DNA of 36,924 bases, taken from positions 1 through 36,924 of the forward strand of contig JAFLLC010000208.1 of assembly GCA_019162745.1 (NCBI GenBank), read 5' to 3'. Both the position numbers and the translations under genes were made by a program. The notes beneath the pieces were generated by a model, which had not been told where the DNA came from, made no database searches, and worked only from the letters and a program-made list of their open reading frames with translations. This DNA is from Deltaproteobacteria bacterium. Its GTDB lineage: Bacteria; Desulfobacterota; Desulfuromonadia; Geobacterales; Pseudopelobacteraceae. Below are positions 28,018 to 30,162 of this stretch, piece by piece (within the stretch, counting starts at the first letter, position 1; each line of letters opens with the position of its first letter).

Positions 28018-29715
28018 CTAGAATTTCTGTACGTCGGTGATACTGCAGCCGAACACCCGCTCTGCCTCTTTGACGACCGGATGGTTTACGGCCTCCTGCT
28101 TCAGTTCTTCAAGATGCTGCTCGGCATCACTCTTTTTTTTTTCTGCCAGTGACAGTGGCGCGTCGGTGAATCCGGCATCAATAGATTTTACCCGGATGGT
28201 GGTATTCACGCCGGTAAAAGTGCAGGCGAGAGCTGTTACCTCAGCGATAAAGTCGCCATCCTGGGCGGCGATCAGATAGTAACTCCCGGCGGGGAAGCCT
28301 ATTTCAATCAAGCCGGTTTCCCGCTTGAGCGGGCTGCCATGCTCAAGCACAGATCCAAGCTGGCGATCCTTTTCATTGACAAAAACCACAAAACGACCCC
28401 AGTCAGTAACTCCTGCGGCAGATTGAGGGGAGGGGGCGGCAACAGCAACAGCGGCAGGCTGGGTCTGCCGGGACGGGACTGCGTGCGACGGTTCTGTCTG
28501 CTGCGGCACCGGCGCCGGAGCGACTCGGGCGGTCTCCCATGGCAGCGTCGGTGTATGGACCGCAGCCGTTTCCAGCGATTTTATTTTTTCAATCAGCTCC
28601 TGAATCGGCACCAGAGGCGCCAGCAGAGCCGCTTTTAAAAGTGCCATCTCCACAATCAGGCGCGGAAAACTGGCATACCCCATTTCAGACTCAGCCTTTA
28701 TAAGCAGCGTCAAGCGGCGTTGAATGTCCAATGCGGTGATGTGAATTGATTGTTTCTGCAGCTCATCAAGTTCCGCCGCTGTTATATCGAGGATCTCTTC
28801 CGGCTTTTTTACCGAGCGAATCACGAGCAGATTGCGGAAATGCTCGATCAGTTCCTGACAGAACTGGCGCATGTTGTATCCGACCAGATCGACCTGCCTG
28901 ATTCCGGCAAGCACGCCCTGGGTGTCGCCCCCGAATATCGCCGCTGAAATTTCTGCCAGCAGGCGGCGATCGATGGTTCCGAGCAGCGTTCCGACATCCT
29001 CGTCTTTGACGTCGTTTCCGCAGAATGCCAGCACCTGATCGAAAGCGGTCAGCGAGTCGCGCATGCTGCCGTCACCTTTGCGGGCAATGAGTGCCAGTGA
29101 AGTATCAGAAACCGTTACGGACTCTTTTTCGGCAATTTCGCGCAGTCTGGTGATGATCTTTGGCAGCGTAACCCGCTTGAAATCAAAACGCTGGCAGCGG
29201 GACAGAATTGTCACCGGCAGCTTGTGCGGCTCAGTCGTGGCAAAGATGAATTTAACATGCTCAGGCGGCTCTTCGAGTGTCTTCAGCAGCGCATTGAACG
29301 CGTTGGTGGAGAGCATATGGACTTCATCGATGATGATGATACGGTAACGGCTGTGGGAGGGGAGATATTTTATGTTGTCGCGCAGGTCGCGGACGTCGTC
29401 GACGCCGTTATTGGAAGCGCCGTCGATCTCGAAAACGTCGGTTGATGTGCCTTTGGTTATCTCGATACACTGCGGGCAGACGTTGCATGGCTCGTGTGTG
29501 ACCCCCCTTTCGCAGTTAAGGGTTTTGGCCATGATGCGGGCGGTGCTGGTCTTGCCGACGCCGCGGGCTCCGGTAAAGAGGAAGGCGTGGGCAACGCGTC
29601 CTGAATCTATGGCGTTTTGCAGCGTGCGGCTGACATGTTCCTGACCGGCCAGTTCGGAAAAGTTTTGGGGGCGGTATTTCCTTGCCAGGACTTCATAGTG
29701 AGTGTCATTGGACAA
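28018..29715 (-). CDS. dnaX: DNA polymerase III subunit tau (gamma/tau)
   Basis: A 565-residue clamp-loader ATPase. The Walker A motif is GARGVGKTSTAR (about residues 48-59), the zinc-binding cysteines are in CERGVTHEPCNVCPQC, Walker B is IIIIDEVHML, and the sensor/arginine-finger region is ATTEPHKLPVTILSRCQRF. Domain III follows to about residue 370, then a P/Q-rich linker, and a C-terminal domain ending HPVVKEAERVFGCSITDV, the conserved tau tail. No good ribosome binding site precedes the ATG. A run of ten adenines followed by G (minus strand, 28133-28142) sits at codons 525-528, a potential slippage site for a shorter product. Confidence 0.95.
   Translation of the reverse strand: MSNDTHYEVLARKYRPQNFSELAGQEHVSRTLQNAIDSGRVAHAFLFTGARGVGKTSTARIMAKTLNCERGVTHEPCNVCPQCIEITKGTSTDVFEIDGASNNGVDDVRDLRDNIKYLPSHSRYRIIIIDEVHMLSTNAFNALLKTLEEPPEHVKFIFATTEPHKLPVTILSRCQRFDFKRVTLPKIITRLREIAEKESVTVSDTSLALIARKGDGSMRDSLTAFDQVLAFCGNDVKDEDVGTLLGTIDRRLLAEISAAIFGGDTQGVLAGIRQVDLVGYNMRQFCQELIEHFRNLLVIRSVKKPEEILDITAAELDELQKQSIHITALDIQRRLTLLIKAESEMGYASFPRLIVEMALLKAALLAPLVPIQELIEKIKSLETAAVHTPTLPWETARVAPAPVPQQTEPSHAVPSRQTQPAAVAVAAPSPQSAAGVTDWGRFVVFVNEKDRQLGSVLEHGSPLKRETGLIEIGFPAGSYYLIAAQDGDFIAEVTALACTFTGVNTTIRVKSIDAGFTDAPLSLAEKKKSDAEQHLEELKQEAVNHPVVKEAERVFGCSITDVQKF
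28113..28143 (-). promoter_or_regulatory. Putative frameshift/slippage signal in dnaX
   Basis: Ten adenines and a G occur in the reading GAA AAA AAA AAG AGT. Four bases after the run (GAGT) is a GATGC/GCATC hairpin with a six-base loop. A -1 shift reads GAG then TGA and stops at 529 residues; a +1 shift also stops within about ten codons. Escherichia coli uses A AAA AAG plus a downstream stem in dnaX, and Thermus uses transcriptional slippage on an A run; use here is inferred. Confidence 0.5.
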
Positions 29716-29796: not shown

Positions 29797-29934
29797 AAAA
29801 ATGTTTGCAGACGCAGATGATAGCCGGGTTTACCCGCGGCACACAGCAGGAGCCGCTGCCGTTGCTTCCTTCCGGACCTGGCGGAGTTCACGGCGTGCCG
29901 TTGCGCGAGGCCCGGCTATCATCTTCGCCTGCAA
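29797..29934 (-). ncRNA. ffs: Signal recognition particle RNA (4.5S-type)
   Basis: The conserved apical domain CAGGTCCGGAAGGAAGCA (plus-strand complement near 29864-29881) identifies bacterial SRP RNA, the scaffold for Ffh in cotranslational targeting. The core with GATAGCCGGG/CCCGGCTATC ends spans 29819-29920. Complementarity continues outward to about 25 pairs with one mismatch, beginning at the predicted start near 29934 and ending in CAUUUUU at 29797. The primary transcript is therefore about 138 nt and the helix doubles as terminator. The dnaX-proximal location is common. Confidence 0.93.
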
Positions 29935-30071: not shown

Positions 30072-30162
30072 TGGCGGAGAGACAGGGATTCGAACCCTGG
30101 GTACGCTATTAACGTACACACGCTTTCCAGGCGTGCTCCTTCAACCGCTCGGACATCTCTCC
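30072..30162 (-). tRNA. tRNA-Ser (GGA anticodon)
   Basis: A 91-nt class II tRNA with encoded CCA. The acceptor stem is GGAGAGA/TCTCTCC with discriminator G. The anticodon loop CTGGAAA gives GGA. The long variable arm (GTGTACGTTAATAGCGTAC region) is typical for serine, and the T loop is GTTCGAATC. The encoded CCA runs straight into TTTTTT, which may help termination. It has its own promoter (30179-30207). Confidence 0.95.

Follow-up and report, generated by a model that had tools for sequence, protein, structure and literature searches.

A conserved adenine run late in dnaX as a probable programmed slippage site that would yield a second, shorter clamp-loader protein in one bacterial order

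Does a run of ten adenines close to the end of a dnaX gene allow this one gene to make two clamp-loader proteins? The gene lies on the minus strand of the window, i.e. the whole stretch of 36,924 nucleotides that was analysed, which is part of a 4.5 Mb draft assembly with 237 contigs. Its product exceeds the curated cut-offs of the full-length DnaX profiles NF011526 (NCBIfam; 844 bits, cut-off 670) and TIGR02397 (459 bits, cut-off 250) and is thus DnaX (gamma/tau); Pfam recognizes gamma/tau domain III and the ATPase domains. Codons 525-530 are GAA AAA AAA AAG AGT GAT (E K K K S D), and the ten A's (28142 down to 28133) are followed by a G at 28132. The site is found at 93% of the gene, 37 codons before its end. 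With one extra A, or when reading moves back by one base, the sequence is read as AAA GAG TGA, so that the protein ends after 529 residues and 37 residues are lost. The initial annotation had described the A10 run with its G at codons 525-528 and a one-base slip that leads to GAG TGA, a 529-residue product and the loss of a tail of 37 residues; both points are borne out by the sequence. Such a run is rare: nine exact A10 runs occur on the two strands of the assembly (runs longer than ten are outside this count), and A10GAGTGA occurs a single time. An SRP small RNA (29819-29917) and a tRNA-Ser(GGA) (30072-30162) are located upstream of dnaX on the same minus strand.

Table 1 Features of the dnaX gene and of its candidate slippage site. 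Positions refer to the window.
Feature	Position	Strand	Basis
dnaX, DNA polymerase III gamma/tau, 565 aa, TTG start	28018..29715	-	NCBIfam and Pfam matches
A10 slippery run (spans codons 526-527, with two bases each from the end of codon 525 and the start of codon 528)	28133..28142	-	
In-phase A_AAA_AAG inside the A10 run, identical to the E. coli dnaX slippery heptamer and in the same phase	28132..28138	-	Sequence; heptamer identity as given in PMC3711429 and PMC5009743
TGA in the -1 frame, one codon past the slip	28127..28129	-	
TGA in the +1 frame, about ten codons past the run	28101..28103	-	
Tail that would be lost on slippage (residues 529-565; the whole of helix 546-555 and the greater part of helix 523-543)	28021..28131	-	AlphaFold2; fold like E. 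coli tau domain V
Predicted domain V core that would be retained in the short form (residues 438-512)	28180..28404	-	AlphaFold2
GATGC/GCATC hairpin (28128-28124, 28117-28113), judged to be outside the signal	28113..28128	-	

The run was followed through Geobacter-like relatives of the host organism. The family set consists of the window's genus and family with 76 genomes, 71 of which have 72 readable dnaX tails (G032 has two), while the other five (G010, G013, G045, G068, G070) have no usable tail. Three other families of the order (f2-f4) contributed 33 genes, from the best 30 of 41 matched genomes and from 3 more (44 of 65 queried). Many of the genomes compared are MAGs. A named member of the family is Pelotalea chapellei DSM 13688, assigned by NCBI to Desulfuromonadia, Geobacterales. 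Order and family are used here as groupings of the genome set; NCBI borders differ, and Pelovirga, which is a sister here, belongs to the same family there. Several loci were left out of the alignment: a different AAA+ gene (L031), the window's own locus found again (L041), a fragment at a contig end with an A10 run and a frame broken upstream (L040), two genes with a broken frame (L063 with A9, broken at the run; L073, broken in the linker at G7) and one gene that is distributed over two contigs (L071 and L072). In addition, L076, which was misplaced in the alignment, and L106, which ends at the run, are left out of the counts of synonymous changes, codons and stops. The direct count of the 72 family tails takes in L063, L072, L073 and L076.

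None of the 72 family tails has fewer than nine A's at this place (ten in 67, nine in four and twelve in one), and A9 or A10 is found in 29 of the 33 genes from the three other families, even at up to 68% G+C. The run also occurs in single-contig assemblies (e.g. L077, L079, L080, L094, L097). A run of at least nine A's is thus present in 101 of 105 genes of the order. The four genes without it (L083, L090, L099, L270), for which the scan revealed no replacement site, weigh against the proposal that is made below. The initial annotation had suggested a check of the run at the nucleotide level in related genomes and had named mixed AAG codons as evidence against slippage. When the relatives were examined, the outcome was the opposite. 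The codons that follow GAA AAA AAA vary (AGC, AAC, AAT, AGG, ACT), and in the three other families most genes have Ser, Asn, Thr or Arg in place of the third Lys, encoded by codons with A as their first base. Two further arrangements are GCA AAA AAA AAA C, which results in A10 (L054), and GAA AAA AAA AGC, which results in A9 (L070). As the run is kept under differing codons, the amino acids are not the reason for its presence.

Some individual loci deserve mention. G032 has two different full dnaX genes on separate contigs (L025 and L039), both with A10; this bin perhaps combines two strains. The dnaX frame of L063 and L106 is broken at the A run in the DNA, and the tail is open in another frame; this is either the reversed arrangement that is described for other bacteria by Antonov et al. 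(PMC3711429) or an assembly error. L073 comes from a single-contig genome (G051) and has its frame change in the linker near G7, which represents either a sequencing error or another recoding site.

Synonymous changes were counted by the Fitch method on a tree from the DnaX proteins themselves. Codons 525, 526 and 527 show 0, 0 and 0 such changes in 68 family genes, compared with a mean of 15.2 over 273 conserved columns, and 2, 1 and 0 in 97 genes of the order, compared with a mean of 23.3. Lys columns outside the run have 4 to 22 synonymous changes on the tree, and Glu columns behave alike, with the exception of Glu131. The run is a conserved feature far beyond chance. This bears on the simplest explanation, that nothing is programmed, that EKKK is the ordinary start of a Lys-rich helix and that the A-rich codons reflect drift or mutational bias. 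About half of the E and K codons in the family are indeed GAA and AAA, but from this usage GAA AAA AAA is expected at frequencies of 0.12 and 0.05 and is observed in nearly all genes, and the other Lys and Glu columns change freely, Glu131 apart. We find this explanation barely credible, as the codon counts effectively refute it unless the gene set is badly biased.

The exception, the Walker B residue Glu131 (IDEVHML; codon at 29323-29325, minus strand), has a codon as rigid as those of the run. It is GAA in 101 of 101 matched loci of the order, in 55 of 57 sister loci and in 31 of 36 other loci. By contrast, at other places in the dnaX genes of the order, Glu followed by Val is encoded by GAA 116 times and by GAG 92 times. 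The constancy of GAA at codon 131 likely results from the avoidance of internal starts: GAG GTN CAY ATG would place the Shine-Dalgarno (SD)-like sequence GAGGT in front of an in-frame ATG.

Run conservation at the codon level would, on its own, suit any DNA or RNA element, and the run might be kept as a promoter or A-tract for downstream genes, with slippage being incidental. The stops in the two other frames provide independent information. Their distances were compared with 400 synonymous shuffles for the 68 family genes and for the 26 run-bearing genes of the other families. The -1 stop follows after 1.4 codons on average in the family and after 1.5 in the others, with lowest shuffle means of 8.9 and 10.7; the +1 stop follows after 9.2 and 12.2 codons, with lowest shuffle means of 13.0 and 19.3. 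When cut-offs of 3 and 11 codons are applied, which were picked after the data had been seen, the -1 stop lies within 3 codons in 66 of 68 family genes and 24 of 26 others (shuffle maxima 43 and 15), and for the +1 stop and 11 codons the figures are 62 of 68 and 23 of 26 (shuffle maxima 51 and 15).

These stops can be traced to individual codon choices. The codon that precedes Asp or Glu, the source of GA in TGA, ends in T in 56 of 67 family genes, with about 15-17 expected, and in 24 of 26 other-family genes, with about 4 expected (two of these 26 lack the run). In f2-f4, Leu ahead of this residue is CTT in 17 of 18 cases, although CTG is the commonest Leu codon. At column 539, a frequent source of the +1 stop, Arg is encoded by AGR in 18 of 25 and 8 of 9 genes, compared with 12% and 17% gene-wide. 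As the stops in both frames are set by codon choices outside the run, they are not predicted by a promoter or A-tract element, and we consider such a role highly improbable. From the pattern of codons, selection seems to keep both the slip and an early end in the two wrong frames. One might argue that slippage is real, that its product is degraded, and that the early stops, which shorten the junk tail, only limit the damage from an unavoidable slip. However, synonymous change would easily avoid the slip, yet the run of at least nine A's persists almost throughout the order, and this alternative, too, is very unlikely. That the dnaX tail contains a selected slippage cassette is, on these comparisons, very likely.

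Which machine would slip? In 65 of 68 family genes codon 528 is AAG, which results in the in-phase heptamer A_AAA_AAG and, in most of them, a -1 stop after one codon. This is what -1 frameshifting of the ribosome would call for, as it is known from E. coli dnaX, but here it would have to proceed without the usual stimulators. The initial annotation had pointed to a five-pair GATGC/GCATC hairpin behind the run. The hairpin does exist in the window, but all of its pairs are found in only 3 of 68 family genes, and it does not appear to be part of the signal. We scanned structure and pairing for 69 family genes (including L063), 27 other genes of the order and 30 linker sites of sister lineages. 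For the 60 nt past the tail run, the minimum free energy (MFE) does not differ from that of synonymous shuffles (z of +0.1 in the window, mean of +0.16 for the 69 family genes and +0.17 for the 27 others). On the basis of its poor conservation and of a downstream fold at shuffle level, we reject the hairpin as a stimulator. Sister linker heptamers, treated with the same script, have an MFE z of -1.05 (n = 30).

A similar picture was obtained for pairing with the anti-SD sequence in the 24 nt upstream of the site. The site in the window has -1.5 kcal/mol, and the means are -2.6 kcal/mol for the 69 family genes (z +0.29) and -3.6 kcal/mol for the 27 others (z -0.19); a value of -5 kcal/mol or better is reached by 13% and 30% of the tail sites, respectively. 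At sister linker heptamers the pairing is -6.8 kcal/mol with a z of -0.78, and 70% are at -5 kcal/mol or better (n = 30). The higher G+C content of the linker makes the z values the better basis for this comparison. In the 69 family genes and the 27 others, an upstream SD-like signal beyond the shuffles was not found on average.

Further observations weigh against the ribosome. In f2-f4, 18 of 30 runs consist of A9 followed by GC or GT, which results in A_AAA_AAA and not in A_AAA_AAG. The GAA of codon 525, which is outside the heptamer, is equally invariant, and the conserved +1 stop would be superfluous for -1 shifting. The host's own assembly has a tRNA-Lys with the anticodon CUU, which reads AAG, and this tRNA is linked to weaker slipping on AAG in a review (PMC5009743). 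A tRNA-Lys with UUU was not found in the 237 contigs by a pattern search with one mismatch, which may only reflect the assembly, and we give this argument little weight. Ribosomal -1 frameshifting thus appears unlikely as the main process, but some ribosomal slipping may occur in the window's family, where the run ends in the in-phase heptamer. Run length, the invariant GAA outside the heptamer, stops in both frames and the lack of stimulators beyond shuffle level fit transcriptional slippage, and we consider it likely that slippage in the dnaX tail is mainly of this type.

The preferred reading, which we regard as probable, is therefore that of a programmed, mainly transcriptional slip site through which a single dnaX gene codes for two clamp-loader proteins. 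On A9-A10, RNA polymerase would slip and release some dnaX mRNAs that are one A longer or shorter. The faithful mRNA would be translated into full-length tau, while a slipped mRNA would reach a stop after one to three codons in one frame or after about ten in the other, which results in a DnaX of about 529 residues. This short form would retain the ATPase and clamp-loader domains, the linker and the core of domain V, and would be devoid of the last two helices. It would be able to load clamps without tethering the polymerase, as E. coli gamma does. We infer the slippage and its rate, its transcriptional nature, and for the short form its stability and its failure to bind alpha; that the short form is stable and used we consider quite likely.

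What the slip would remove was analysed at the level of structure. An AlphaFold2 model of residues 430-565, computed with 54 sequences (mean pLDDT 88, pTM 0.73), has a core (438-512), a long helix (523-543) and a short helix (546-555), with the slip point early in the long helix. At the sequence level, no solved structure matched the C-terminal domain in a profile search (best E 0.37), and for this reason folds were compared. Among the Foldseek matches, domain V of E. coli tau ranks 1 and 2 (5fkv_E and 5fku_E, from the polymerase complex) and 6 (2aya, NMR), with E values of 0.014, 0.014 and 0.054, probabilities of 0.99, 0.98 and 0.92 and a best TM of 0.52; no match reached an E value of 0.001 or better. 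VIA-align superposes model residues 9-118 on tau 522-623 in 5fku_E (Z 8.8, 2.3 A over 102 residues). SirA and domain I of DnaA reach a level Z (8.6-8.8), but only with the core, and tau is set apart only by the coverage that extends into the helical tail (to model residue 118). As modelled, the C-terminal fold resembles that of E. coli tau domain V, and the slip point would correspond to about tau residue 604, when counted back from the aligned ends.

For E. coli, alpha binding has been assigned to tau residues 611-636 (PMC11470591). According to the same source, the I618X protein, in which the last 25 tau residues are deleted, binds alpha only negligibly, like gamma, but still stimulates unwinding by DnaB; like gamma, it does not support the passage of DnaB over duplex DNA, and in E. 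coli a chromosomal I618X allele could not be recovered. The homology thus supports the view that the two helices that would be lost are those where tau binds polymerase alpha. The initial annotation had named the polymerase or the helicase as presumed contacts of the tail; for the polymerase, this gains support from the tau-like fold of the model and from the loss of alpha binding in I618X. Its statement that the slip removes exactly the conserved tail while the rest of tau is retained is supported as well. As I618X fails in DnaB translocation over duplex DNA, the interplay of the 529-residue form with the helicase may likewise deviate from normal. I618X resembles the proposed short form in that the alpha-binding end of domain V is lost and the rest is kept. 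It is, however, an engineered protein, while the short form proposed here would arise beside tau by slippage and would end earlier, close to where the tail helix begins.

Sister lineages have their sites elsewhere. From a larger class, we took 59 genomes of sister families, with 57 dnaX genes (L211-L267; G149 and G185 were left out). In 29 of these 57, an in-phase A_AAA_AAG with an early -1 stop is found in the linker, in most cases at a distance of 144-150 codons from the end and typically in the context CCA AAA AAG CCT GAA GCC. One further gene has a linker A10, and L256 has an A10 at a different position of the tail. In f10, which is outside the order, three of five genes (L241, L261, L263) have a tail run of A9-A10, 43-44 codons before the end, which points either to a second lineage or to an older origin. 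In 23 of the 57 sister genes, a slippage site of any of the scanned kinds was not found. A linker heptamer was not detected in the 105 dnaX loci of the order (L071, L073 and L076 were scanned in part). As about half of the sisters have such a heptamer, the short form may take the place of gamma, being a DnaX that is unable to hold the polymerase. The absence of a linker site is, however, not unusual in itself, as the 23 sister genes without any site illustrate, and this weighs against the argument. The initial annotation had stated that the product is "not a classic gamma"; this is correct with respect to size, but may miss the point with respect to function.

Yet another arrangement is found in six records that carry the labels Desulfurivibrio, Desulfobulbaceae or only Deltaproteobacteria/Proteobacteria (L166, L167, L169, L170, L176, L179). 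They have a linker run of A9-A10 with an immediate -1 stop (CAA AAA AAA A.., codons 419-423 of the part read). This is probably a slippage cassette at the classic place of gamma. Judging from these sequences, dnaX truncation sites within the phylum seem to differ in where they lie as well as in the cassette that they use.

Recoding of dnaX as such is already known. In Thermus thermophilus, tau and gamma result from transcriptional slippage at an A9, with stops 2 and 16 codons downstream (PMC4320859, PMC1088944, PMC5009743). As here, this is a sense-strand run late in the gene, the zero frame codes for tau and both other frames stop soon; by place in the gene alone, the Thermus run is at seven-eighths compared with 93% here. 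The E. coli gene shares with ours the in-phase A_AAA_AAG with an early -1 stop, and its short DnaX does not bind the polymerase. However, E. coli gamma stops at residue 431, shortly into domain IV, and its site has an SD-like sequence and a hairpin as stimulators, whereas the site described here is located after the core of domain V and no counterpart of these two stimulators was detected. The phenotypes of gamma in E. coli concern UV survival and mutagenesis (PMC5009743, PMC13220808). Antonov et al. (2013, PMC3711429) assigned two-ORF dnaX genes with A runs of 7-10 to transcriptional realignment, and nine dnaX genes with A10 are said there to align with the Thermus motif. In such two-ORF genes recoding is needed for tau, while here the zero frame codes for tau in all but L063 and L106.

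In the literature (open-licence papers), no paper was found on a slip site in the dnaX tail in this order. As far as this literature shows, three points are new: the presence of the site throughout the order, its place behind the core of domain V and its exchange for the linker site of the sisters. On balance, we lean towards the view that the whole order has moved programmed DnaX truncation from a linker site, which apparently is ribosomal in many sisters, to a transcriptional slip in the tail, with a product that is tau without its polymerase-binding helices.

From the codon-level comparisons, cells of this order probably produce, besides tau, a truncated clamp-loader protein in which only the presumed polymerase-gripping part is missing. 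If this is true, one dnaX gene sets how many polymerases each clamp loader holds. For E. coli, it was disputed whether a short DnaX truly belongs to the replisome (PMC5009743), and comparative evidence for truncating slippage has been called difficult to get (Baranov et al. 2005, PMC1088944). The evidence from this order would be of that kind, as selection seems to keep a slip that shortens DnaX, at the very point that parts polymerase binding from the rest of tau. The locus would thus represent a natural separation-of-function system. As the machinery and the place of DnaX shortening seem to differ between neighbouring lineages, the role of the short form would become testable.
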